Below are positions 29,923 through 42,913 of a stretch of 42,913 nt of DNA, piece by piece; position 1 is the stretch's first letter, and each line of letters opens with the position of its first letter. Below the pieces are notes generated by a model that searched no databases, was not told the DNA's origin, and saw only the letters and a list, made by a program, of their open reading frames with translations. Made by a program: the position numbers and the translations under genes. Source of the stretch: Planctomycetaceae bacterium. Lineage in GTDB: Bacteria > Planctomycetota > Planctomycetia > Pirellulales > UBA1268. The stretch lies in NCBI GenBank assembly GCA_947449135.1, contig CANFQO010000020.1, positions 1 through 42,913 on the forward strand, given 5' to 3'.

Positions 29923-30429
29923 TCACACCCGGTCCTGATGTCGCGACTTGCTGCGATTGCTGCGGCAGTCGGCACATAGGCCGGAGATGATCAGCCGGTG
30001 GCTCCGCGCACGAAACTGGTGCTGACCGGCGACCGCGTCGCAGATCCTGGCGAGATCGTCGCTGGAGAATTCGATCAGCTTCTGGCATGACGTGCAGTGA
30101 AGATGGTCGTGCTGCGGGTAGCCGTAGTCGTGCTCATAGACGGCCCGACCTCCGAGCACCATCTTGCGCAGCAGGCCCGCATCCACCATCTCTGTGAGCG
30201 TGCGGTAGACGGTGGGGCGACTCGCCTTCGCCCCCTCTGGCGTCTGGCGGAGCCCGGCCAGGAGCTGCTCCGCATCGAAATGCTCGTGATGGCTGCTGAC
30301 GTGGTCGACGATCACCTGACGCTGCCGCGTGATCCGCTTGCCACGGGTCTGGAGAAACTCCGCGAACCGCTCGCGCGGCGTCAGCGCGACGTCAACCTTG
30401 CCGAGTGAAAAGTCAGATGCGATGGCCAT
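29923..30429 (-). CDS. fur: Fur-family metal-dependent regulator
   Basis: The product is 168 residues. The DNA-binding winged helix has RITRQRQVIVDHVSSHHEHFDAE and SRPTVYRTLTEMVDAGLL. The metal-binding domain has HDHLHCTSC (His107, His109, His111, Cys112, Cys115), with the second Cys pair Cys152 and Cys155 near the C-terminus. The Cys pairs form the structural zinc site, and the His/Asp/Glu set binds the regulatory metal. The sequence suits Fur, but PerR or Zur cannot be excluded from residues alone. It is longer than typical Fur because of 15 extra N-terminal residues and a basic C-terminal tail. Its candidate promoter is at 30460-30487. Confidence 0.85.
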   Translation of the reverse strand: MAIASDFSLGKVDVALTPRERFAEFLQTRGKRITRQRQVIVDHVSSHHEHFDAEQLLAGLRQTPEGAKASRPTVYRTLTEMVDAGLLRKMVLGGRAVYEHDYGYPQHDHLHCTSCQKLIEFSSDDLARICDAVAGQHQFRARSHRLIISGLCADCRSNRSKSRHQDRV

Positions 30430-30459
30430 GGAATCTTTCAGGAGATGACCGTCTCTGCG

Positions 30460-30487
30460 AGTCTAAATCGCATCCGGCATAAGTCTA
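30460..30487 (-). promoter_or_regulatory. Candidate fur promoter
   Basis: On the minus strand TAGACT (30487-30482), a 16-base spacer and a second TAGACT (30465-30460) match -35 TTGACA and -10 TATAAT at four of six positions each. The transcript would begin about 24 bases before the fur ATG. The identical hexamers also form a direct repeat that a regulator could use. Confidence 0.4.
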
Positions 30488-30598
30488 GCGGTCCGAACCG
30501 CCGGGGGCGGCGAAAGCCTCCGACTCGAGGCCAGGATAGGCCGACTCGCTTCGGCTTCCCCCGACCCCCGGCTCGCCGAAAGACCGACTACGCTTCCC

Positions 30599-30639
30599 AA
30601 AAAACGCCAACAGCCGGCCCGTTGCCGGACCGGCTGTTG
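30599..30639 (-). terminator. Rho-independent terminator of flgM
   Basis: CAACAGCCGG (30608-30617) and CCGGCTGTTG (30630-30639) form a perfect 10-bp stem with a 12-base loop. On the minus strand the stem is followed within three bases by TTTTTT (30604-30599). It lies about 35 bases beyond the flgM stop codon. This is a classical terminator and separates flgM from fur. Confidence 0.85.
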
Positions 30640-30673
30640 CTTGGACAGTATTTTAGATCAGCCGGCGACTGAC

Positions 30674-30967
30674 TCAGCCGCTGAGGCGATCGAGCAGGCG
30701 GTCGAGCGCCAGGTCGAGTTTCTCAGGCGTGTCGTACGAACCGTCGGCAATCGCCGCCCGGATCGCGTTGACGCGATCGAAGCGAATGTCGCCGGTCGAT
30801 TCCGCAGACCGCACCGCATCGACCGACAGCGTCACCGAATCGTGCACCTCGGACACACCCTGCTGCATGGCGGCCTGAGTGCCATCAGCGGCCTGTGCGG
30901 CCTCGACACCCTTCAAGGCGTTCAGCCCCTGCGATCCCTGCGTCGACGTGACACCCCAGATGTTCAT
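30674..30967 (-). CDS. flgM: Anti-sigma-28 factor FlgM-like protein
   Basis: The product is 97 residues from ATG 30967, with AGGAG 8 bases upstream. FlgM binds the flagellar sigma factor FliA and is exported once the hook is complete, releasing late flagellar genes. The C-terminal segment RFDRVNAIRAAIADGSYDTPEKLDLALDRLLDRL matches the sigma-binding part of FlgM (R...I...I..G.Y.vd...iA..ll). The N-terminal part is Ser/Gly/Ala/Gln-rich and probably unfolded, as in other FlgM proteins. The middle has VSEVHDSVTLSVDA, corresponding to the usual D.v.lS motif. The gene is downstream of the sigma factor gene on the same strand, about 390 bases away, and ends at a strong terminator. Confidence 0.8.
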   Translation of the reverse strand: MNIWGVTSTQGSQGLNALKGVEAAQAADGTQAAMQQGVSEVHDSVTLSVDAVRSAESTGDIRFDRVNAIRAAIADGSYDTPEKLDLALDRLLDRLSG

Positions 30968-31354
30968 GTTGGCTCTCCTGTAGCGAAACCGGCGTACCGC
31001 GTTTCGAATCCCCAATGCACCCCCGACATGTCCGCTTCTACGCCGTTGCCGGCCGGAAGGTTCTCGGGTTCATGGCGAGTGTTGGGATTCGCGGCTGCCT
31101 GTTCCTTTCTGACTGACTGATCTCATCGCTATTGTTGCCGCGCTTCCGCGTTCCGGCGACACCAGTCGCCGGACAGCGGCCGGACGGAATCACCCGTGCG
31201 GTCGCCGCGACCAACCTTTTCTCATCGACCAACCGCGATTCCAAACTTCAGAAAAATTTTTCCCGGCTTGTTTTTCGCATTCTGCGGGCCCCAGGGGCCC
31301 GCATCCTGCCTAGACTGCCAGCCTGACGGCCGGCCAAACCATCGACACGGCCAA
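30968..31354 (-). other. 387-base gap between the sigma factor gene and flgM
   Basis: No protein-like frame is visible. The gap holds a perfect 10-bp inverted repeat, TGCGGGCCCC/GGGGCCCGCA, around a single A at 31293 (31283-31303). It also holds CCTAGACTG (31309-31317) and an AT-rich AATTTTTCCC (31255-31264). The last two are also found, in the same order and similar spacing, downstream of flhA (32356-32390). They may be transcription signals for the flagellar genes, but they do not match sigma-28 or sigma-54 consensus. Confidence 0.4.
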
Positions 31355-32149
31355 TCAACTCAGCGCAAATTCCACCTTCCGCCGATCAAGCTGATTCTGG
31401 AGACGCTCCACGATGGCCGAATGCATCTGGCTGACGCGGCTCTCGGAGAGATCGAGCGTCGCGCCGATCTCCTTCATCGTCAGTTCCTCGTAATAGTAGA
31501 GGATGATGATCAGACGTTCGTTGCGGTTGAGTCCCTTGGTGACCAGCCGCATCAGGTCGGATTTTTGAATCCGCCGCGTCGGATCTTCACCCTTCTTGTC
31601 CTCCAGGATGTCGATCTCCCGGACGTCCTTCGAACTGTCGGTCTCGCACCACTTCTTGTTGAGGCTCACGAGGCTCACAGCATTGGCATCGACGAGGTGT
31701 TTTTCGAACTCCTCGTGCGACAGCCCCATGTGGGCCGCGACCTCGGCATCGGCCGGGGCACGCCCCAGTCTCGCCTCGAGCGTCTTGACCGCTTCGTTGA
31801 GCTTGCTGGCTTTCGATCGGACGAGACGTGGCACCCAGTCCATGGTCCGCAGTTCGTCGAGCATCGCCCCGCGAATTCGCGGCACGCAGTAGGTCTCGAA
31901 CTTCACGCCGCGAGACATGTCGAAGGCATCGATCGCGTCCATGAGGCCGAACGTGCCCGCTGACACGAGATCGTCGAGTTCGACGCCGTCGGGTAGACGG
32001 GACCAGATCCGTTCGCCGTTGTATTTGACCAGCGGCAGAAAGATCTCGATGAGCCGGTTCCGGAGTGTCTCGTTCGACTGGTCGGCCTTGAAGGTCGTCC
32101 AGATCTCGAGCATCTCCTCAGCCGACGGCTGGGACGCATAGTTCGCCAC
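31355..32149 (-). CDS. fliA: Flagellar sigma factor, FliA/WhiG type (sigma-28)
   Basis: The product is 264 residues from GTG 32149, which has a strong AAGGAGG ribosome-binding site 5 bases away. The sigma-70 family regions are clear. Region 2 has YNGERIWSRLPDGVELDDLVSAGTFGLMDAIDAFD, then GVKFETYCVPRIRGAMLDELRTMDWVPR, the LR..DWVPR ending being typical of FliA and WhiG. Region 3 has LEARLGRAPADAEVAAHMGL. Region 4 has LNRNERLIIILYYYEELTMKEIGATLDLSESRVSQMHSAIVERL. It should direct late flagellar genes and be held by FlgM, encoded downstream. It lies 252 bases after flhA in the same direction. Confidence 0.92.
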   Translation of the reverse strand: MANYASQPSAEEMLEIWTTFKADQSNETLRNRLIEIFLPLVKYNGERIWSRLPDGVELDDLVSAGTFGLMDAIDAFDMSRGVKFETYCVPRIRGAMLDELRTMDWVPRLVRSKASKLNEAVKTLEARLGRAPADAEVAAHMGLSHEEFEKHLVDANAVSLVSLNKKWCETDSSKDVREIDILEDKKGEDPTRRIQKSDLMRLVTKGLNRNERLIIILYYYEELTMKEIGATLDLSESRVSQMHSAIVERLQNQLDRRKVEFALS

Positions 32150-32335
32150 GTCATCCTCCTTGAAAGGGCCTTACCTGCAAAGCCGCGGTTCAGCGCTGCC
32201 GCCACGCCACGAACTTCTTGTCTTCACGCCGGAGACGCACCATCCTGGTGCATCCCGACACTCCGCACTCGCCTGTATCCGACACCGACCAGCACCGCCG
32301 AACTTCTCATCATCGACCAGAAGCCGGCACCTACC

Positions 32336-32365
32336 TGAATGTTTTTCCGTTGAATATTTTTCCCT
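32336..32365. repeat. Two tandem 15-base repeats between flhA and fliA
   Basis: TGAATGTTTTTCCGT (32336-32350) is followed directly by TGAATATTTTTCCCT (32351-32365), differing at two positions. The AT-rich pair lies in the 252-base gap after flhA, about 190 bases before the sigma factor start, and could bind a regulator. The remaining bases of the gap show nothing else I can name apart from CCTAGACTG at 32382-32390. Confidence 0.45.
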
Positions 32366-32401
32366 GTGGCCATCCAGCCCACCTAGACTGCTGCGGCCGC
32401 C

Positions 32402-34525
32402 TCACGCCGCCCGCAGCACCTCGCCACCTCCCACACACGCAAACACTTCCACCCGCTCCTCGTCGGCCAGTTCCTCTGTCGCAAGCACCTGCACGTCGGG
32501 GAGATGGCGGGACAGTGCCTCGCGGACCTGGAGCCGAACGGCTGCGGGCACGATAACCACAGGCCGCGCACCCCGATCCACGACGGGGCGAACGGCACGC
32601 CGCACTTCTGCAATCAATGGGAGGGGCAGACGACCTGAGCCGCCGACGATCGCGTCGATCGCAGCCCCTTCCAGCCGCACTGCGACGAGCCTTCCCCGCG
32701 GGTCCCGGGCTCGACGGCAGATCGATCGGGCCAGCGATCGCCGGACGATTTCCGCCAACTGCGCCGGATCAGCCGCCTCGGCGGCATGATCAGCCATGAT
32801 TTCGAGCACCTCGGCCAGCGGCCGGATCGGCACGCCGTCGCGGAGCAGGCACTGCAGCGTGCGGTGAATGCGGGCGATCGTGAGTACGCCGGGCACCACC
32901 TGCTCGACGACCGCGGGCTGCACGGCACGAAGCGATTCAATCAGCCGAGCCACCGCGTCCCTGGTAAGCAAGCGGTCACCGTGGCGACGGATCGCCGCCT
33001 CAATGCCCCGGGCGATGCAGTCGGCGTCGCCATAGACGGCCGCACCGCGGCGAGCGGCAGTCTCCGCCAGGGCATGGCCCACCCAGGCGCCACGCCGACC
33101 GGAGAGCGGATCGATTGCGGGGGCGTCTTCGGCTTCGTTCTGTTCGGGGAAGAGTTGCTCGTCGAGCACCTCCCCAGCGGCCGCCACGGCCAGCAGTTTC
33201 CCAGCCGGGATCTCCGCCTCGATGACGACATCGCCCGCGATCGTCACCCGGTAGCAGCGGTTGGGGAGTGACATGTTGTCACGCATCGCGATCGATGGCA
33301 CGACCAGCCCCAGATCGGCGGCCACGGTCGATCGCACCGCGGCCGACCGCTCTGACAGTGGAGCCGATTGTCCTCTGCCTGATGCGGGCGAAAGCAGTCC
33401 CACCAGACCGCGGCCCAATTCCACGACGATGCGTTCGTCAGCGAGCAGTTCATCGGCAGGATTCGCCCGCGCCGTCACCGTGGCATTCGCTTCGGAGCCC
33501 GCAGCCCCCCGCCCGGCAGCACGCGGCTGTTTCGGCGCGCGCCCAATCATCCAGGCAGTCGTTGCCACCGCTACGGCCATTCCCGCCAGCGGCAGGAAGG
33601 GCAGGTCAGTCAGCGACAGCAGGCCGAGAAACACCGCCGTGATCACGAGCACGTGCGGCCGTGAGAAGAATTGCCTGCCCAGTTCCTGCGACAGGTCGAC
33701 CGTCTGACTCGACCGTGAGATGAGCAGCCCCGTGGCCACCGAGATAAAGAGCGATGGCACGGCGCTGACGAGCCCGTCGCCGATGGTCAGCCGCGAGTAG
33801 ATGTCGAGCGCCTTCGGCACCGGCATGCCGTGCTGCACAACGCCGATAGCCAGGCCCCCGACCAGATTGACCACCGTGATGATGACGCTGGCCACGGCCT
33901 CGCCGCGAACAAACCTGCTGGCACCATCCATGCTGGCAAAGAAATCGGCCTGCCGTTGCAGGTCGAGCCGCAGCTGCCTCGCCTGGTCGCGGGTGATCGT
34001 GCCGGCCTGCAGATCTGAGTCGATCGCCATCTGGCGGCCCGGCAGACCGTCGAGGGCAAACCGGGCGGCCACCTCGCTCGTGCGGGTCGAACCGGCGGTG
34101 ATCACGACGAACTGGATCACGGCGATAATCGCGAAGATCACCGCACCGACGACGATGTTATTGGCGGCCACGAATTCGCCGAAGGCCTGCACCACCTCTC
34201 CGGCGGCGCCGGCGCCGTCGATGGCCGCGCGGGATAGCACCAGCCGCGTGGTGGCGATGTTGAGCACCAACCGCACGAGCGTGGAGCCGAGCAGGAAGGT
34301 GGGGAAGATGCTCAGTTCAAGCGGTGTGCGGGCTGCGAGCGCCCCCAGAAGCGCGAGCACCGAGATGGTGAGGTTGGCCGCCAGCAGCAGATCCACGACC
34401 GCCGCCGGCACCGGTGCCAGCACCACCATCACCGACAGCAGAATGACCGCCGGGATCGCGTAGTCGAGAACGTGGGCCGAGGCAGCCCGAGGAGCTGCCG
34501 CGGATATGCCTGGGGACTGCGCCAT
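32402..34525 (-). CDS. flhA: Flagellar biosynthesis protein FlhA
   Basis: The product is 707 residues from ATG 34525. FlhA forms the nonameric gate of the flagellar type III export apparatus in the inner membrane. The N-terminal 330 residues hold about eight transmembrane segments, including VILLSVMVVLAPVPAAVVDL and NIVVGAVIFAIIAVIQFVVI. The FHIPEP signature is TSEVAARFALDGLPGRQMAID, with Arg for the usual Lys in PGKQM. The C-terminal cytoplasmic domain has VRSTVAADLGLVVPSIAMRDN and YRVTIAGDVVIEAEIPAGKLLA, and continues to VFACVGGGEVLRAA. An InvA/SctV-type protein is less likely, because it lies with fliA and flgM. The gene starts 226 bases from a divergent plus-strand gene. No other export genes are in the window. 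Confidence 0.93.
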   Translation of the reverse strand: MAQSPGISAAAPRAASAHVLDYAIPAVILLSVMVVLAPVPAAVVDLLLAANLTISVLALLGALAARTPLELSIFPTFLLGSTLVRLVLNIATTRLVLSRAAIDGAGAAGEVVQAFGEFVAANNIVVGAVIFAIIAVIQFVVITAGSTRTSEVAARFALDGLPGRQMAIDSDLQAGTITRDQARQLRLDLQRQADFFASMDGASRFVRGEAVASVIITVVNLVGGLAIGVVQHGMPVPKALDIYSRLTIGDGLVSAVPSLFISVATGLLISRSSQTVDLSQELGRQFFSRPHVLVITAVFLGLLSLTDLPFLPLAGMAVAVATTAWMIGRAPKQPRAAGRGAAGSEANATVTARANPADELLADERIVVELGRGLVGLLSPASGRGQSAPLSERSAAVRSTVAADLGLVVPSIAMRDNMSLPNRCYRVTIAGDVVIEAEIPAGKLLAVAAAGEVLDEQLFPEQNEAEDAPAIDPLSGRRGAWVGHALAETAARRGAAVYGDADCIARGIEAAIRRHGDRLLTRDAVARLIESLRAVQPAVVEQVVPGVLTIARIHRTLQCLLRDGVPIRPLAEVLEIMADHAAEAADPAQLAEIVRRSLARSICRRARDPRGRLVAVRLEGAAIDAIVGGSGRLPLPLIAEVRRAVRPVVDRGARPVVIVPAAVRLQVREALSRHLPDVQVLATEELADEERVEVFACVGGGEVLRAA

Positions 34526-34664
34526 GAAACGACGTCTGCCGGGGGAGGAAACGACGGGACCGACCGAGGACTGTCGGGCCGGCCGAGGACTGTCTGCGAG
34601 GGGCGGACAATAGCGGTGCTGTACGGGGCGGTCCAGACCGCTCCGCGGCTTCGCCTTCAGCAGA

Positions 34665-34670
34665 TAGAAT
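34665..34670 (+). promoter_or_regulatory. Candidate -10 element of the small gene at 34752
   Basis: TAGAAT (five of six matches to TATAAT) lies about 80 bases before the ATG, in the gap shared with divergent flhA. The same hexamer is used as a candidate -10 before the redoxin-fusion gene at 36724. No clear -35. Confidence 0.3.
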
Positions 34671-34751
34671 GGCAAATCGCGAGTTTTTCCGGCGGTTGAG
34701 TTGCCGTCGGAAACGAAGTCCTCCCCTTTTTTAGCAGGATCTGCCGCGACG

Positions 34752-35198
34752 ATGCACTTCAACCGTTTTGGGCTGGCCTTCGACTACCCGGAAAACTGGT
34801 CGGTCGACACCGATGATTCGCAGGACCGTTATGCCGCGGTGACCGTCTATTCACCGGAAGGTGGCTTTTGGTCGGTGAGTGGCCACGCGGCCGGCGGCGA
34901 TCCGGCAGAACTCGCCGTGGCGGTACTCGCCCAGATGCGAACCGAGTACCAGGATCTCGACAGCGAGCCGGCAGGAGACGAGATCGCCGGACATGCCCTC
35001 ACCGGCCTGGACATCAACTTCTATTGTCTCGATCTCACGAACACCGCGCAGGTGCGGACGCTCGAAACAGCCGACGCGATCTACCTCCTCATCTGCCAGG
35101 CGGAGGATCGGGAGTGGGAGCGGATCTCCGCGGTATTTGCGGCGATCACCACCAGCTTCGTCGCGGCATTGCCGGAACCGCTCCCCGACGACGACTGA
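34752..35198 (+). CDS. Small hypothetical protein with PsbP/DcrB-like fold pattern
   Basis: The product is 148 residues from ATG 34752; an upstream GTG-type extension is less protein-like. The start FGLAFDYPENWSVDTDD, followed by AAVTVYSPEGGFWSVSGHAA, resembles PsbP/DcrB (DUF1795)-type domains. These open with a (V/I)SF.YP..W segment and a beta strand with a polar end. Unlike those, no signal peptide or lipobox precedes it, so it is probably cytoplasmic. The centre has LDINFYCLDLTNTAQVRTLETADAIYLLICQAEDREW. The acidic C-terminus ends in PDDD. The gene is single, between flhA (divergent) and a TerC gene (129 bases downstream). Function unknown. Confidence 0.6.
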   Translation: MHFNRFGLAFDYPENWSVDTDDSQDRYAAVTVYSPEGGFWSVSGHAAGGDPAELAVAVLAQMRTEYQDLDSEPAGDEIAGHALTGLDINFYCLDLTNTAQVRTLETADAIYLLICQAEDREWERISAVFAAITTSFVAALPEPLPDDD

Positions 35199-35327: not shown

Positions 35328-36407
35328 GTGTATCTGCTTGCACAACTCGACGCACCGGCGGACCTCGCAGCCTCGGGATCGACGATCCAGATGTGGCACT
35401 GGCTGGCCTTCGCCGCCATGGTGGCGGTGCTGCTGACGCTCGACCTGACAGTGTTCCACAAAAAGGCCCATGAGCCATCGCTCAAGGAAAGCGCCTTCTG
35501 GACGCTGTTCTGGGCGGCTCTGGCGCTGGCCTTCAACGCCCTGGTCTGGTGGTGGCTCGGCGGCCAGGCTGCCATCGAGTTTCTCACCGGCTATCTCGTC
35601 GAGTGGTCGCTGTCGATGGACAACGTCTTCGTGTTCGCGGTGATCTTTGGCTACTTCCGCGTGCCGCTGAAGTATCAATACCGCGTGCTCTTCTGGGGCA
35701 TCCTGGGCGCCGTGTTGATGCGGCTGTCATTCGTCCTGGTGGGGGCCGAACTGGTCGAGCGATTCCACTGGGTGATGCCACTGTTCGGCGCCTTCCTCGT
35801 CTACACGGGCATCAAGCTGGCGTTTGGCGAGGAGGAGTCCCATCCGGAGGAGAGCACCTTGGTGAAGCTCTTCCGTCGGCTCATCCCGGTGACAAACCAG
35901 TCCGATGGAGACAAGTTCTTCGTGCGCGAACAGGGCCGGCTGATGGCCACACCGCTGTTTCTCGTGCTCTTGATCGTCGAGAGCACCGATGTGCTCTTCG
36001 CAGTCGACAGCGTGCCGGCGATTCTCGGCATCGTCACGCCGGGGGCCCACTACATGCGTTTCGTCGCCTTCACGTCGAATGTCTTCGCGATACTCGGCCT
36101 CCGCGCTCTCTACTTCCTGCTCGCGGGCGTGATGGACATGTTCCGTTTCCTCAACTACGGCCTCTCCGCGGTGCTCGTGTTCGTGGGTGGCAAGATGATC
36201 CTCGAAGCGGCCCGACACAGTGAGTCGCTGGCCGCCTGGGGCGGCTGGGATGCCCATACCAAGGGACATCTGGTGCATCCGGCCGTGTCGCTGCTGGTGA
36301 TCGTCGGTCTGATCGGCGCGAGCGTGGGTGCTTCGCTGGCCTTTCCAGAGCGAAAGGACGGTGCGGAGGTGGCGGGCGACAAGGCCAAGGAACCGCCGCA
36401 CGGCTGA
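35328..36407 (+). CDS. TerC/Alx-family integral membrane protein
   Basis: The product is 359 residues from GTG 35328; ATG at residue 22 is possible. About nine transmembrane segments are visible, starting WHWLAFAAMVAVLLTLDLTVF. Family motifs are LDLTVFHKKAHE, WSLSMDNVFVFAVIF and VESTDVLFAVDSVPAILGI, the last two carrying the acidic residues of the conserved helices thought to bind metal. Alx is an E. coli relative induced by alkaline pH and linked to manganese export, and TerC was named for tellurite resistance. Metal ion export, probably manganese, is the likely role. The C-terminus is a short, Lys/Glu-rich tail. The gene stands alone. A repeat-rich gap follows. Confidence 0.9.
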   Translation: MYLLAQLDAPADLAASGSTIQMWHWLAFAAMVAVLLTLDLTVFHKKAHEPSLKESAFWTLFWAALALAFNALVWWWLGGQAAIEFLTGYLVEWSLSMDNVFVFAVIFGYFRVPLKYQYRVLFWGILGAVLMRLSFVLVGAELVERFHWVMPLFGAFLVYTGIKLAFGEEESHPEESTLVKLFRRLIPVTNQSDGDKFFVREQGRLMATPLFLVLLIVESTDVLFAVDSVPAILGIVTPGAHYMRFVAFTSNVFAILGLRALYFLLAGVMDMFRFLNYGLSAVLVFVGGKMILEAARHSESLAAWGGWDAHTKGHLVHPAVSLLVIVGLIGASVGASLAFPERKDGAEVAGDKAKEPPHG

Positions 36408-36771: not shown

Positions 36772-38766
36772 ATGCCCCGTCCCCATCTGGCCGTCGTGTT
36801 CATGCTGCTCGGGCCGCTCTGCGGCGGAACCGCCCGAGCGGAGTCCCCTCCTCTGGCGCCGGCGACGCTTCGCGATGAGACACCTGCTACCGATATATTT
36901 CCATTGAAGACGGTCGATGGCAGTGGGATCCCGTTCGATTCCGCCGCGCCGTGTCACGTGATCGCTTTTCTCGGCGTCGGCTGTCCGGTGGCCAGGCAGT
37001 ACACAGGTCGACTCGAAGAGATTGCGGCGCGGTATGCCGACCGCGGCGTCCGTGTGATCGGCGTCGATTCCAACCGGCAGGACTCGCCCGAGGAGTTTGC
37101 CGCTGCGGCCGATGAAATGGGCGTGACGTTTCCGCTCGTGCTTGATCAGGAGCAGCGGATCGCACGGCGTCTCGGAGCAACGCGCACCGGTGGCGTGGTG
37201 GTGCTCGACGCCCTCGGCACCGTCGCCTACGCCGGCCGCGTCGACGACCAGTACGCCCCCGGAATCGCGCGTTCTGCGCCCACGGTCAACGACCTCGTCG
37301 CCGCGATCGACGATCTCCTCGCCGGCCGGCCCGTGGCAGTGCCCCGCACCGAGCCTGTCGGATGTTTGATCACGTTCGACCGCGACGCCCGCGTCGCCGA
37401 CGACTCTGCGCCCACGTTTCACCGCGAGATCCTCCCGCTGCTTCATGGCCATTGCATGGAGTGCCACCGTTCCGGCGAGATCGGTCCGTTCAACGTGTCT
37501 ACCCTCGAAGAGGTCCGCGGGTGGGCGGAGATGATGCTCGAGACGATGGAGCAGCAACGCATGCCCCCCTGGCATGCGGCGGCAGGGCACAGCGAATTCA
37601 AAAACGCCCGGCAACTGCCCGATGACGCCATCCCGCTCTTCCGTCGCTGGATCGAGGCCGGCATGCCAGCTGGCGATGCGGCTGCGGCCCCCCCCTCCCC
37701 CGCCTTTGTCGACGGGTGGCGTCTGCCACGCGAACCAGACCTCGTCGTCCCACTCGGGAGGCGGCCCTACGCGGTGCCTGCCTCCGGCACCGTCGACTAC
37801 CAATACTTCGTCGCCGATCCGCACCTCGAGGAGGAGACCTGGGTCGCTGCCGCACAGGTCGTGCCGGGTGTTCCCTCGGTCGTTCATCATGCGATCGTCT
37901 TCACCCGTCCGGAAAACCTCGCCGAATTCCGCGGCCTGGGCTTCGTGACCGCCTACGTGCCTGGTCAGCGGGGCACCACTTTTCCGCCAGGTCACGCGAG
38001 GCGAATTCCCGCCCGATCGAAGTTCGTATTCCAAATGCACTACACCCCCGATGGCCGGGAGCGGGAGGATCTGACCCGTGTCGGTATCGTGCGAATTCCA
38101 CGCGAGGAGGTGACGCACGAAGTGATCACCCAGGCGGCGGTCGAACAGGACTTCGAGATCCCGCCGAACACCGCCGCGCATCAGGTGCATGCCGAACTCA
38201 AGGGCTTCACCAGGGGCAGCACGCTCCTGGCCGTCTCCCCCCACATGCACCTCCGCGGCAAGGCGTTTGAACTGCGTGCCCGCCGGGGGGAGCAGTCGGA
38301 GACGCTCCTGTCGGTGCCGCATTACGACTTCAATTGGCAACACACCTACGAGTTCGCCACACCGCTTCCTCTCGACGACGTCGATGCCCTCGAAATCGTC
38401 GCGGTGTTCGACAACTCCGCCGGCAACCCGACGAACCCGGACCCGGAGGAGACCGTGATGTGGGGCGAACAGACGTGGGAGGAGATGGCGCTGGCGTTTT
38501 TTGAGGTCGCGCGGCCGCTGACCCCAACGGACAAACCAGCGACGCCAGTTCGGGATAGGCAGGCGGAACCGGAGGACAGCGTTGCTGCCGCCCGCGCCGC
38601 GTCGTTCCTCGAACGCTTCGATGCCAACCACGACGGGGTCGTCGTCCGCACGGAAGCCTCACGGATCGTCCGCGACTACTCGTTCAAGATCATCGATGGC
38701 GATGGCGATGGCCGGATCACCCGCGATGAGGCGCTGCGCGCCATGCGGGGGCGCCGTGGCCGGTGA
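36772..38766 (+). CDS. Redoxin-cytochrome c-copper monooxygenase-like-EF-hand fusion protein
   Basis: The product is 664 residues, secreted (signal peptide 1-23). The order of modules is as follows. (1) A peroxiredoxin-like thioredoxin fold, about 40-190, with a single Cys71 in FLGVGCPVARQY and no resolving Cys nearby. (2) A cytochrome c-type haem motif, C228-x2-C231-H232 (HCMECH), followed by RMPPWHA, which may supply an axial ligand. (3) A region resembling the C-terminal half of ascorbate-dependent copper type II monooxygenases, with His372-His373 (VVHHAIVF), FQMHYTPDG and His491-x-His493 (HMHLRG). (4) Two EF-hands at 617-628 (DANHDG) and 642-653 (DGDGDG). This layout is known in planctomycetes, where the substrate is unknown. 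The peroxiredoxin part may reduce or protect the haem and copper centres. An MMPL exporter follows 52 bases later. Confidence 0.85.
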   Translation: MPRPHLAVVFMLLGPLCGGTARAESPPLAPATLRDETPATDIFPLKTVDGSGIPFDSAAPCHVIAFLGVGCPVARQYTGRLEEIAARYADRGVRVIGVDSNRQDSPEEFAAAADEMGVTFPLVLDQEQRIARRLGATRTGGVVVLDALGTVAYAGRVDDQYAPGIARSAPTVNDLVAAIDDLLAGRPVAVPRTEPVGCLITFDRDARVADDSAPTFHREILPLLHGHCMECHRSGEIGPFNVSTLEEVRGWAEMMLETMEQQRMPPWHAAAGHSEFKNARQLPDDAIPLFRRWIEAGMPAGDAAAAPPSPAFVDGWRLPREPDLVVPLGRRPYAVPASGTVDYQYFVADPHLEEETWVAAAQVVPGVPSVVHHAIVFTRPENLAEFRGLGFVTAYVPGQRGTTFPPGHARRIPARSKFVFQMHYTPDGREREDLTRVGIVRIPREEVTHEVITQAAVEQDFEIPPNTAAHQVHAELKGFTRGSTLLAVSPHMHLRGKAFELRARRGEQSETLLSVPHYDFNWQHTYEFATPLPLDDVDALEIVAVFDNSAGNPTNPDPEETVMWGEQTWEEMALAFFEVARPLTPTDKPATPVRDRQAEPEDSVAAARAASFLERFDANHDGVVVRTEASRIVRDYSFKIIDGDGDGRITRDEALRAMRGRRGR

Positions 38767-38818: not shown

Positions 38819-41149
38819 ATGGACCACCGAGTGGCGCGGCCCTCCGTCACGGCGCGGGCATTTGCGGCCGTCATCGATCACCCTTGGTTGTGCCTCCTCT
38901 TCGCCCTCGGGCTGACCGCGTTGGCTGCCGCAGGCTACCGCGATCCGGGTTGGGCCAAAGGGGCGTGGAAGGGAACCTGGTGGCGGGGGGCCGAAGCCGG
39001 CGAGAAGGTCGACAGTGGGCCGGCACGCCCGCGACGGGCCGGGCGTGGCAGCGGCTCGGCCCTTGGTCGCGCCGACGCGATCCTGGTGGTGGAGTGTCCG
39101 GCAGTGTTCACACGCGAGGGGACTGCGGCGCTGAGGCATGTTGTCGATCGCCTCGAATCGCTTGACTCGGTGGCAGGGATCACCTGGCTCGACAGGGCAC
39201 CGCCGCTCAATGTATTCGGGCTCTCCGAGCCGGTCCTCCCCCGCGGGCCGGCCTCGCCGAAGCGATTCGAGGTGGCCCGCGAGAAGGCGCTCGACCATCC
39301 GCTCGTCGTCGGGCAACTGCTCTCGCCAGACGCGCAGACGCTGCTGTTGCTTGTCACCTATGACTGGGCACTCGTGCAGGATGAGGTCGATGTCACCGAC
39401 GCCCTCGTCGAGACCGCCAGGTCGGCGGCGGCCGACCATCCCGGAGTGCCGCTCTCGTTCGCCCTCACCGGCCCGGTGCCGATTCGTCTGCAGTGGACGC
39501 GAAACAGGGATGCCAACGAGTGGATCTATCTGTCTGTCGGATTCGGTCTGATCCTTGCCCTTTCCTCCGTGCTGTTTCGCGGACTGTCGGTGGTGCTCGT
39601 CACGGCAGCGGCGCCGGTGATCGGTGTGTTGTGGACTCTCGGACTCATCCGTTCGATCGGCCTTCAGGACAACCCGTTCAGCCACATCATCCTGCCGGTG
39701 CTCCTCAGCCTCGTCGGCTTTGCCGACTCGGTGCACATGATGGTCGACATTCGCCGCGGCCTCGCGACTGGTCTCACGCCCCGCGCGGCCTGCCGCCGGG
39801 CGCTCGGCACCGTCGGTGTCGCCTGCTTCCTGACGATGATCACGACCGCCATCGGGATGGCCTCGCTGTCGCTGGCACGGCACGAGACCGTCCGTGACTT
39901 CGGCTGGTCGTGCGTGATCGGCGTGGCCGCCACCTGGGTGGCGGTGTTGACGGTGTTGCCGCTGTGCTGTGCCACCCCCTGGAGCCGAGTCCTCGCACGG
40001 GGCGCCGGTCGCGAGGTGATCGGCGGCCAACTCCACCGCGTCGCTCGCGGGATCGACTTCACACTCCGTCATGCGGGGATCACGAGTGCTGTGACGATCG
40101 GCCTGTTCGCGGCCCTCGGCGTGGTGACGCTGCGGCTCCAACCCGATGACAGAAAGGCAAACATCCTCCCGCCGGGAAGCCCCGCTCAGCGGGCCCTCGA
40201 CCAGATCGACACGGCCATGGGTGGGCTCGACGTCTGCTCGGCTGACCTCCAGTGGACCGGCGACCCGGCGCCGGAAGAGGTGGCTGATGTCCTGGGTGAG
40301 GTCGATCGGATCCTGGCCGCGGAGCCACTGCTCGGTCACCCGCTCTCCGTCTGCCGCCTCGTCGACGCGCTCCCGGGCGAGGGGCCCGCACGCGAGCGGA
40401 TGGACCTCCTCGATCTCCTTCCACCGCCCCTCAAGGACACCCTTTACAATCCGGTTGCGCGGACAGCGCGGGTGACGTTTCGCGTGCCCGACCGCGGCAC
40501 CGTGGCCTGCAAGCCGACGTTTGAACGGGTCGATGAAGGACTGCGGCGGATCGAGGCGGCCCATCCCGGCTTTGCGCTCACGCTCTCCGGTGAGCCGATC
40601 ATGCGGTGGCGCGATCTCTATCAGGTGGTGATCGATCTGGCCCGCAGCCTCGGGACGGCGGCGTTCGAGATCCTCGTGGTGATGGTGGTGGCGTTCCGCT
40701 CGCTGCGTCTGGGGCTGATTGCGATCGTTCCCAACATGCTGCCGCTAGCGGCGGCCGGCGGATGGATGGTGCTCACCGGGCAGCCGCTCGACATCGTCTC
40801 TGTGTGCGCCCTGACGGTCTGCCTGGGGATCGCCGTCGATGACACGATCCACTTCCTCTCACGCTACCGCTTCGAACTCGATCAGGGGCTCGACAAGCAG
40901 ACGGCGATCCGCCAGGCGTTCGCCGAGGTGGGCACCGGGATGATCATGACGACGATCGTCCTCGTCGCCGGATTCTCCTCGGTGTTTGCCAGCGACAGCC
41001 GCGACCACCGGGCGTTCGCCTCGCTCGGCGTGGTCACTCTCGGGATCGCTCTGCTGTGCGACCTCTTCTGCCTGCCGGCGCTGGTAGCGGTCTTCGACAG
41101 GCCGCCGAAGGCATCGGGGGTCGCTGCGCCCGCAAGTCTCACCGACTAG
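38819..41149 (+). CDS. MMPL/RND-family membrane transporter
   Basis: The product is 776 residues from ATG 38819, with GGAAG upstream; GTG 38755 is an alternative that overlaps the previous stop. The build is the two-fold repeat of MMPL proteins. An N-terminal membrane segment (WLCLLFALGLTALAAAGY) is followed by a large outer domain, then five segments including YLSVGFGLILALSSVLF, VLLSLVGFADSVHMMVDIRRG and FLTMITTAIGMASLSL. A second outer domain follows, then five more segments, LVVMVVAFRSLRLGLIAIVPN through LGIAVDDTIHFLSRYR. The GFADSVHMM and GIAVDDTIHFL motifs carry the acidic residues used in proton coupling. These proteins export lipids or hydrophobic compounds. It is smaller than efflux RND pumps and has no partner MFP in the window. 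It may work with the redoxin fusion upstream. Confidence 0.88.
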   Translation: MDHRVARPSVTARAFAAVIDHPWLCLLFALGLTALAAAGYRDPGWAKGAWKGTWWRGAEAGEKVDSGPARPRRAGRGSGSALGRADAILVVECPAVFTREGTAALRHVVDRLESLDSVAGITWLDRAPPLNVFGLSEPVLPRGPASPKRFEVAREKALDHPLVVGQLLSPDAQTLLLLVTYDWALVQDEVDVTDALVETARSAAADHPGVPLSFALTGPVPIRLQWTRNRDANEWIYLSVGFGLILALSSVLFRGLSVVLVTAAAPVIGVLWTLGLIRSIGLQDNPFSHIILPVLLSLVGFADSVHMMVDIRRGLATGLTPRAACRRALGTVGVACFLTMITTAIGMASLSLARHETVRDFGWSCVIGVAATWVAVLTVLPLCCATPWSRVLARGAGREVIGGQLHRVARGIDFTLRHAGITSAVTIGLFAALGVVTLRLQPDDRKANILPPGSPAQRALDQIDTAMGGLDVCSADLQWTGDPAPEEVADVLGEVDRILAAEPLLGHPLSVCRLVDALPGEGPARERMDLLDLLPPPLKDTLYNPVARTARVTFRVPDRGTVACKPTFERVDEGLRRIEAAHPGFALTLSGEPIMRWRDLYQVVIDLARSLGTAAFEILVVMVVAFRSLRLGLIAIVPNMLPLAAAGGWMVLTGQPLDIVSVCALTVCLGIAVDDTIHFLSRYRFELDQGLDKQTAIRQAFAEVGTGMIMTTIVLVAGFSSVFASDSRDHRAFASLGVVTLGIALLCDLFCLPALVAVFDRPPKASGVAAPASLTD

Positions 41150-42913
41150 GGCAGGATGACCTCGACGTCGGCTCCCGCCGCAAGGCTCGTCGTCTTCCCG
41201 GCCACCTCGATCGCGAGCGGCCGATCCCCCGCCCGCCGCCGTAGGACGGTGATGCTCCCGTCCGGTCGGGCCGTGACGTCGATGAGGTGATCGTGGATGC
41301 GGATCGCAGTCACGGTCAGCTCCGGCCACTCGGCAGGGAGACGCGGTGCGATCCGGCAGCCCTCGGCCGTCGGCTCGAAGCCAAGGAAGCCGTCGAGCAT
41401 CACCTGGGGCACGAGCACGCTTTCCATGAATTCTTCATCCACTCCCAGACCGCCTGCCGTGCCTCCTCCCTGGAGCGTGCCGCGTCCCTTCTCCGGTTCG
41501 AAGTATTTCCGGTAGCCCCCCTCCTTCTGCACCTCGGCATACCAGTCGAGGATCTCCCGGAGCCGTCGCCAGGCATCGTCGGGCCCAAGGGTGGCAAGGC
41601 GAGCCATGATGTCGTGGTAGCTGAAGCCTAGGACAGCACCGCCGTCCTGTACCTGGCCTCCCCAGGGGATCGTTTCCGGTCCCGTCCACATCCACGCGTA
41701 GGTCTCGACGTTGCGTTTCGTCGTCGCCCGCGGGGCGCAGCGCCAGTGGTAGATGTCGGAACCGCGTGACGTGTCTCCCTCGACCTCACGCTGTCCGTCG
41801 ACCCAGGCGAGGATCGAATCCGCCTGTTCCGCCGAAGCCATGCCGTATTGAATCGCCTCGAGATTCACGAACGTGAAGCCGTAGTCGTAGGCCTTGCCGG
41901 TCGCGTCGATCCAGCCGACAAACCGACCCGTCGTGGGATTCCAGAACCGTGCCTGGAAATCGGCCCGCATGGCAGCGACGAGCCCGCGCAGGTCGGCGGG
42001 ATCGAACGGGGCATCGGCTGCCTCAGCAGCCGGTGGTGTGATTCCTGCTGTCGGGATCATCCACTCGCTGTGACGCAACACCGCCTCCTCGAGAACAGCC
42101 AGTCGGAGCAAGGCGTCGGCCAAGTACATCGTCGCCAGCGCGTCATGGCCACCGAAGGGGAGCAGGTCCCAGTAATTGTTTCCCACGCCGATGCCGGGAA
42201 GCAGTCGCTTCGTGCCGTCAGGCTGCGCATCGAGGCCGGAGCGTCCGTCGTGGCCGACCCAGGGAACCACGACGTGTTTCTCTTCGCGGACACGGAACTC
42301 CTTCAAGGCGAAGCGGGCGGCCCTCCGCATCCGTGGCAGCGACTGGCGGAGAAAGTCGCTGTCGCCGGTCCAGAGAAAGGTCTCGGCGCAGCCGCGGATG
42401 AAGAGGGCGTTGGTGATCGGGTGGCGGGTGTCGATCGCCGTGAAGATCGACTTCAGCGCCACGGTGGAGCCATTCGCTCCGTCGATCTCGATCGAGTATC
42501 CGGTGAGGATCCCCGCATAGCCGGGCTGGGGGTAGAGCGGCAGGTTGATGATCGCCAGGCTCCCGTCGGCCGGTGGGAGCGGCAGCGGCACGCCTGTCGA
42601 CGGCTGCCAGCCCTCCTGCCCCTCGATCCGCCACCGCAGCCGGGCGGTCGCGCCAGTGGGGAGTTTCTCGGCGGCCCATTCGATCCGGGCAAACGGGGCG
42701 ACGATCGTGCCACAGCGGAAGGAGGGCGTGGTGAGCGTGACGCGGTCGGCGTTCACATCAAGGAGCATGCCGCGGAGAGGATCGGCAGTCTCGCGGGAAG
42801 TGGCTCCGTCGATCTGAAACCCTCCCGGCGGCGCGAGCGCCTGAAGCCTGACCTGCTGGACCGCCCACCCGTCGCCGGCGACGGAAAAATGCCAGCCGGA
42901 ACCGGTGCTCTGC
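41146..42913 (-). CDS. Six-hairpin glycosidase, N-terminus outside the window
   Basis: At least 588 residues; the frame is open through the right edge, so the start is missing (an internal ATG at 42768 is probably not the true start). Aromatic and acidic segments of an (alpha/alpha)6 barrel are visible: GIGVGNNYWDLLPFGGHDAL, with possible catalytic Asp nearby, FWNPTTGRFVGWIDATGKAYDYGFTFVNLEAIQYG, and WMWTGPETIPWGGQVQDGG. The N-terminal part is a beta-sandwich (LRWRIEGQEGWQPSTG), and the C-terminus has a Greek-key sandwich (RIHDHLIDVTARPDGSITV). The family may be near GH78/GH95/GH116-like or glycogen-debranching enzymes; I cannot choose. It degrades or modifies a polysaccharide, probably outside the cytoplasm. 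The stop overlaps that of the MMPL gene by 4 bases, convergent. Confidence 0.75.
   Translation of the reverse strand, partial: QSTGSGWHFSVAGDGWAVQQVRLQALAPPGGFQIDGATSRETADPLRGMLLDVNADRVTLTTPSFRCGTIVAPFARIEWAAEKLPTGATARLRWRIEGQEGWQPSTGVPLPLPPADGSLAIINLPLYPQPGYAGILTGYSIEIDGANGSTVALKSIFTAIDTRHPITNALFIRGCAETFLWTGDSDFLRQSLPRMRRAARFALKEFRVREEKHVVVPWVGHDGRSGLDAQPDGTKRLLPGIGVGNNYWDLLPFGGHDALATMYLADALLRLAVLEEAVLRHSEWMIPTAGITPPAAEAADAPFDPADLRGLVAAMRADFQARFWNPTTGRFVGWIDATGKAYDYGFTFVNLEAIQYGMASAEQADSILAWVDGQREVEGDTSRGSDIYHWRCAPRATTKRNVETYAWMWTGPETIPWGGQVQDGGAVLGFSYHDIMARLATLGPDDAWRRLREILDWYAEVQKEGGYRKYFEPEKGRGTLQGGGTAGGLGVDEEFMESVLVPQVMLDGFLGFEPTAEGCRIAPRLPAEWPELTVTAIRIHDHLIDVTARPDGSITVLRRRAGDRPLAIEVAGKTTSLAAGADVEVILP

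Follow-up and report, generated by a model that had tools for sequence, protein, structure and literature searches.

PHM and DBH, animal enzymes that produce amidated hormones and noradrenaline, are the closest described systems to the protein reported here. In the passages of PMC4846438 cited here, CuM is suggested to bind O2 and CuH to transfer electrons, and ascorbate supplies two electrons. The copper ligands of DBH are given there as His262, His263 and His333 for CuH and His412, His414 and Met487 for CuM. The cited part of the literature also describes a closed form, in which 4 to 5 Å separate the coppers. As far as its Table 3 goes, a 2020 review (PMC7435645) places PHM and DBM under eukaryotes only.

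Here we describe a gene for a protein in which a copper domain of this kind is joined to a haem domain. On balance, we favour the reading that it is secreted to the periplasm and acts there as a two-copper monooxygenase with the PHM/DBH fold, its electron donor being a cytochrome c fused within the same protein. A search of papers available without subscription gave no description of this haem-copper family among the matches listed.

The locus and the encoded protein

The window, which is the whole stretch of 42,913 nucleotides that was analysed, comes from a host assembly of 3.69 Mb in 169 contigs. An ORF at 36772-38766 (+) encodes 664 aa and has exactly the coordinates reported for it in an initial annotation, which had described a secreted fusion of four modules. 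The redoxin, the haem site, the copper domain and the EF-hands were indeed all present in this one ORF. The features of the ORF and its surroundings are as follows.

29923-34762, all minus strand: FlhA (FHIPEP), a sigma-70 family factor and a Fur-family regulator
35328-36407, plus strand: TerC/Alx-family metal homeostasis membrane protein, upstream (385 bits)
36772-36840, plus strand: Sec-type signal peptide, residues 1-23 (approximate)
36883-37380, plus strand: redoxin domain, residues 38-203, with C71 (CP motif) and C198
37393-37686, plus strand: c-type cytochrome domain, residues 208-305, with C228-x-x-C231-H232 and M264 in MPPW
37705-38526, plus strand: type II copper monooxygenase domain, residues 312-585, from fold and ligands
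38569-38751, plus strand: EF-hand pair, residues 600-660, loops 617-628 and 642-653 from a pattern scan
38819-41149, plus strand: MMPL-family membrane transporter, 776 aa, the next gene (PF03176 89.8 bits, cut-off 20.5)
41146-42768, converging on the MMPL gene: glycoside hydrolase-like ORF with a GH65 C-terminal domain

The signal peptide was assigned by eye from the hydrophobic N-terminus, with the boundary placed between GGTARA and ES. The full protein was modelled with AlphaFold2 from 66 aligned sequences, and the model had a mean pLDDT of 90.3 and a pTM of 0.85, with low confidence over much of residues 1-30. Cysteines are found at positions 17, 61, 71, 198, 228 and 231 of the 664-aa protein and nowhere else. 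The copper ligands, the CxxCH motif, M264, C71 and C198 were each kept in 87/87 aligned sequences, the query counted. A search of the host genome returned no second copy; the sole other match was to the redoxin alone.

The copper domain has a PHM/DBH fold

When residues 320-586 of the model were searched against known structures, both Foldseek and VIA-align returned PHM and DBH, and the region has two jelly-roll domains in the PHM topology. PHM was the first Foldseek match (3mlk, E 5.6e-14), and the structure of the PHM M314I mutant (1yi9) was also among the matches. VIA-align superposed residues 320-585 of the model on 1phm with a Z of 20.8 and an rmsd of 2.8 over 245 residues. The Pfam model PF03712 (Cu2_monoox_C) scored 21.7 bits with the query and 24.9 bits in a whole-genome search, against a cut-off of 23, and matched 50/66 members of the alignment at E <= 0.01. 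Because the score of the query itself was just under the cut-off, the identity of the domain was set by fold and ligands. PF03712 had matches in 0/14 control genomes, so the copper domain is not commonplace in bacteria.

The predicted ligands are H372, H373 and H423 for CuH and H491, H493 and M572 for CuM. A copper-domain profile (A2, built from 53 sequences) was compared with the PDB, and human DBH was the only match at E <= 10 (E 3.3e-4). In the alignment of this profile with DBH (4zel), the HH, H and HxH motifs were in register and the five histidine ligands were paired; the chain positions 223, 224, 294, 373 and 375 lie 39 below His262, His263, His333, His412 and His414. M572 was placed at PHM Met314 by register only (model residue 586 corresponds to PHM 328). 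The histidine ligands were kept in 189/189 aligned sequences, and M572 in 188 with one gap.

The initial annotation had named three histidine-based copper motifs and had missed the sixth ligand, M572. Its suggestion that these motifs could bind copper agrees with the predicted structure, which has the PHM/DBH fold and complete CuH and CuM ligand sets. The type II copper monooxygenase fold is well supported, and so are the complete sets of ligands for CuH and CuM.

The haem domain

The single CxxCH site that had been noticed earlier was confirmed as C228-x-x-C231-H232. C228 and C231 were conserved in 186/186 sequences, H232 in 185/186 and M264 in 186/186, and M264 is our candidate for the distal haem ligand. 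Among the 66 members of alignment A1, PF13442 (Cytochrome_CBB3) matched 48 and PF14376 (Haem_bd) matched 28 at E <= 0.01; none of the Pfam cytochrome models matched the query protein itself at E <= 1.

The haem domain modelled alone had a pLDDT of 86.9. In a fold search with this model, the best match was chain A of 5c2v with a Z of 5.0, which is weak and at a level that may occur by chance according to the tool. This weak structural neighbour is the hydrazine synthase of Kuenenia. A haem-domain profile compared with PDB sequences gave no confident match, only weak ones (best E 0.04). Since the fold searches gave no confident match, the haem assignment leans on the motifs and on the Pfam matches of the relatives. 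Among the proteins of the host genome is one for cytochrome c assembly (PF01578, 82.1 bits).

The haem and copper domains are kept together

The A2 profile matched 58/149 Planctomycetota genomes, the host genome counted. A scan of genome contigs with query peptides gave 104 loci, of which 80 were kept; the peptide patterns favour close relatives. Planctomycetota titles were carried by the records of 77 loci, and the relatives in named records were Planctomycetota. From the collected sequences, 192 distinct ORFs with a copper domain were sorted with profiles built in this analysis. Because query peptides were used, this set is biased towards the kin of the query, and near-identical rows remain in it.

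The order redoxin-haem-copper-EF was found in 93 of the 192 ORFs, including loci titled Stieleria and Rhodopirellula. An origin of the gene as an artefact, by frameshift fusion, misassembly or chance motifs, had nothing in its favour; it was rejected on the ground of this distribution and has next to no chance of being true. The other orders were redoxin-haem-copper (59/192), haem-copper (21/192), haem-copper-EF (11/192), EF-redoxin-haem-copper (3/192) and haem-copper-EF-redoxin (1/192), and the remaining ORFs were copper-EF (2/192) or copper only (2/192). The haem and copper domains were within one ORF in 188/192. Among the four exceptions, two were cut by sequence ends (L113 and L134) and one was interrupted by a stop codon (L072). 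The fourth (L198:3959-4978, 340 aa) is neither cut nor interrupted, and no CxxCH motif was found on its strand in the 9 kb available.

This distribution gives indirect support to a role of the haem in feeding the copper, since the pair is nearly always kept in one ORF while the redoxin and the EF-hands come and go. A different role for the haem was also considered, in which it is a sensor or a structural element and the monooxygenase depends on ascorbate or another small reductant. The cited passages of PMC4846438 offer a precedent: DBH has an extra N-terminal domain, a DOMON, and domains of this class can have haem or sugar as a ligand, yet the enzyme uses ascorbate. A structural haem would be more easily lost, however, than the near-constant pairing and the near-invariant candidate haem ligands allow, and we regard this alternative as quite unlikely.

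Several observations on individual relatives were made in the same set. One gene (L200:3164-5320, minus strand) is a natural permutation in which the haem, copper and EF-hand modules come first and the redoxin lies at the C-terminus, not the N-terminus. In three others (L193:3408-5807, L208:3193-5397 and L209:3714-5681) TPR repeats follow the copper domain on its C-terminal side, and L208 and L209 are without a fused redoxin. Several relatives contain an in-frame TGA, for which recoding was considered and rejected: it is an ordinary stop in the BLAST alignment of L010 and L094, and L011 ends there too. Four MAG records (L040, L042, L044 and L094) are titled Candidatus Kuenenia stuttgartiensis and carry the gene at 74-78% identity. 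These titles look wrong, because L094 contains all of L010, a locus from a genome placed in the query's own family.

The redoxin and the EF-hands are variable partners

The redoxin domain scored 42.1 bits with PF08534 (cut-off 26.6), and PF00578 was also above its cut-off. VIA-align superposed residues 31-205 on 2cvb with a Z of 21.8 and an rmsd of 2.6 over 170 residues. The thioredoxin-like proteins 2cvb, 2ywi and 3u5r share with the query the redoxin fold, 28-31% identity and a C-terminal GC motif that contains C198. In 2cvb there is a CxxC, whose last cysteine is aligned with C71; the query retains C71 alone. The initial annotation had read this module as a single-Cys peroxiredoxin. There is one active-site cysteine, C71, as it had said, but C198 is about as conserved: among the fused redoxins, C71 was found in 155/156 and C198 in 154/156. 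TxxC is the active-site signature of peroxiredoxins, and it is missing here, residue 68 being Gly; therefore "thioredoxin-like redoxin" is a safer term than peroxiredoxin. A search of plasmids for homologues gave 23 records, all of them redoxin-only matches.

The EF-hand pair was recognised by PF00036 (EF-hand_1) at 26.1 bits against a cut-off of 25.4. A loop scan found the 12-residue DxDxDG...E pattern at 617-628 and 642-653, in agreement with the two canonical calcium loops proposed before.

The redoxin was fused to the haem-copper protein in 156/192. The neighbourhood of unfused genes was analysed for the 19 that had at least 700 nt upstream and at least 1200 nt downstream. A separate redoxin was adjacent in 11/19, in every case on the strand of the haem-copper gene (7 upstream and 4 downstream). 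Under the same flank requirement, an extra redoxin was found beside 0/107 fused genes. The other 8/19 unfused genes were without a neighbouring redoxin, and the redoxin may therefore be dispensable. Judging from these gene arrangements, the redoxin is a frequent but mobile partner and the haem belongs to the core. As for the joining of all four modules, the redoxin and the EF-hands are regularly separate, while the haem-copper pair is not.

The association with a redoxin raises another explanation, a copper enzyme driven by peroxide. Such an enzyme would use H2O2 instead of O2 and two electrons, the haem would prime the copper once, and the redoxin would control the peroxide. The tie between the redoxin and the haem-copper protein, by fusion or adjacency, and the conserved CP cysteine are in line with this explanation, and priming of the copper would also account for the inseparable haem. 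The separate redoxins kept C71 in 12/12 and C198 in 10/12 (the other two were gaps at the end of the aligned stretch), and 5/12 had Thr three residues before C71, as peroxiredoxins do. At that position, however, the fused redoxins had Gly in 101/156 and Thr in only 7/156. In addition, according to the cited passages of PMC4846438, DBH inserts an atom of O2 with ascorbate as the source of electrons, and in PHM the suggested site of O2 binding is CuM. We consider the peroxide-driven enzyme unlikely and retain the monooxygenase supplied with electrons by its haem.

A downstream MMPL transporter in one clade

For the MMPL gene, the most probable start codon is the ATG at 38819, 52 nt past the stop codon of the copper gene. 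Its product shares PF03176 with the MMPL/HAE3 RND transporters; the longer ORF scored 127.7 bits with TIGR00921, far below the cut-off of 351.9. The initial annotation had suggested that this adjacent pump may export the product, and had named co-occurrence of the two genes across genomes as a check. We mapped the linkage on a FastTree of 185 rows. MMPL was directly downstream in 66 rows, all inside one clade of 74 rows (support 99). Of these 74 rows, 70 could be scored, and MMPL was present in 66 and absent in 4. Outside the clade, MMPL was downstream in 0/95 testable rows. The 11 rows of the sister group (support 90), which also have EF-hands, lack it. One gene outside the clade (L172) has an MMPL gene upstream. 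The linkage is real but limited to one clade, and the simplest account is that MMPL was gained once and then mostly kept. Export of the product by the MMPL protein is still a guess.

When the flanks of 150 loci were clustered, MMPL was the sole constant neighbour, lying at +1 on the same strand in 53/53 loci of its cluster. A wider conserved operon was considered and rejected; the clusters of kinase, DUF1501, sulfatase, TPR, Dus, PSCyt2, WD40 and MutL genes were scattered or limited to a few loci. The GH65-like ORF and the MMPL gene also converge in close relatives, L094 and L044 among them.

The TerC/Alx-family gene upstream brings up metal homeostasis. Sco-kind copper chaperones are thioredoxin-like, as the redoxin is, and the PHM fold could bind, store or deliver copper without any oxygenation, the redoxin and the MMPL protein acting in metal homeostasis. 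We think a copper-handling protein very unlikely. The catalytic set of three His plus two His and Met was kept throughout the 189 sequences, apart from one gap, and TerC was found upstream in just one other genome (L028, which is contained in L105 with the same sequence). It was absent upstream of relatives such as L040, L043 and L045, each with more than 3 kb of upstream sequence.

A proposed mechanism

In the monooxygenase that we favour, electrons from the respiratory chain would reach the c-type haem and pass from it to CuH, one at a time, and then to CuM. O2 would be activated at CuM, and a C-H bond of the substrate would be hydroxylated. From the chemistry of DBH and PHM, ascorbate would not be needed, the fused cytochrome taking its role; this proposal fits because versions without haem are nearly absent. 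The redoxin, with C71 and C198, would most likely shield the copper/haem pair from peroxide, or keep thiols or copper reduced, and the EF-hands may stabilise or anchor the protein in a calcium-dependent way. For the MMPL clade, a hydrophobic product or substrate that the transporter moves would be probable; it is the MMPL neighbour alone that suggests a hydrophobic substrate. The MMPL pairing is a lead to that substrate.

More broadly, and with some hesitation, we propose that Planctomycetes may have a widespread branch of the PHM/DBH enzymes that is free of ascorbate, in which a covalent cytochrome c on the same chain would lead respiratory electrons into CuH. If this is true, the arrangement in bacteria may reveal how enzymes of this kind operated when ascorbate was not yet to be had, a reading that is suggested because cytochrome c sits where DBH has DOMON. 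It would add an enzyme class to the bacterial copper proteins. A coloured haem as donor in a natural fusion would also allow each electron to be traced by spectroscopy inside one protein.

Comparison with known systems

The copper domain has in common with PHM (1phm, 1sdw) the two-domain fold and the ligands, three His plus two His and Met, at 17-18% identity. PHM is without a fused haem, whereas the query copper domain carries one. In an approximate register, Arg240, Asn316 and Tyr318 of PHM, which we take to be its peptide-binding residues, correspond to S489, L574 and F576 of the query. Given these substitutions, and as far as this register allows, the protein is probably not a peptide amidator.

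Human DBH (4zel) is similar to the query in having an extra domain ahead of the copper core. According to the cited passages of PMC4846438, DBH has DOMON at the place where the query has cytochrome c, has a dimerisation domain as well, and uses ascorbate. Both copper domains of DBH contain disulfides in the same account, and the query copper domain has none because it contains no Cys. Each domain type of the protein is known; what is new is the tight haem-copper fusion, the mobile redoxin and the MMPL transporter in one clade.
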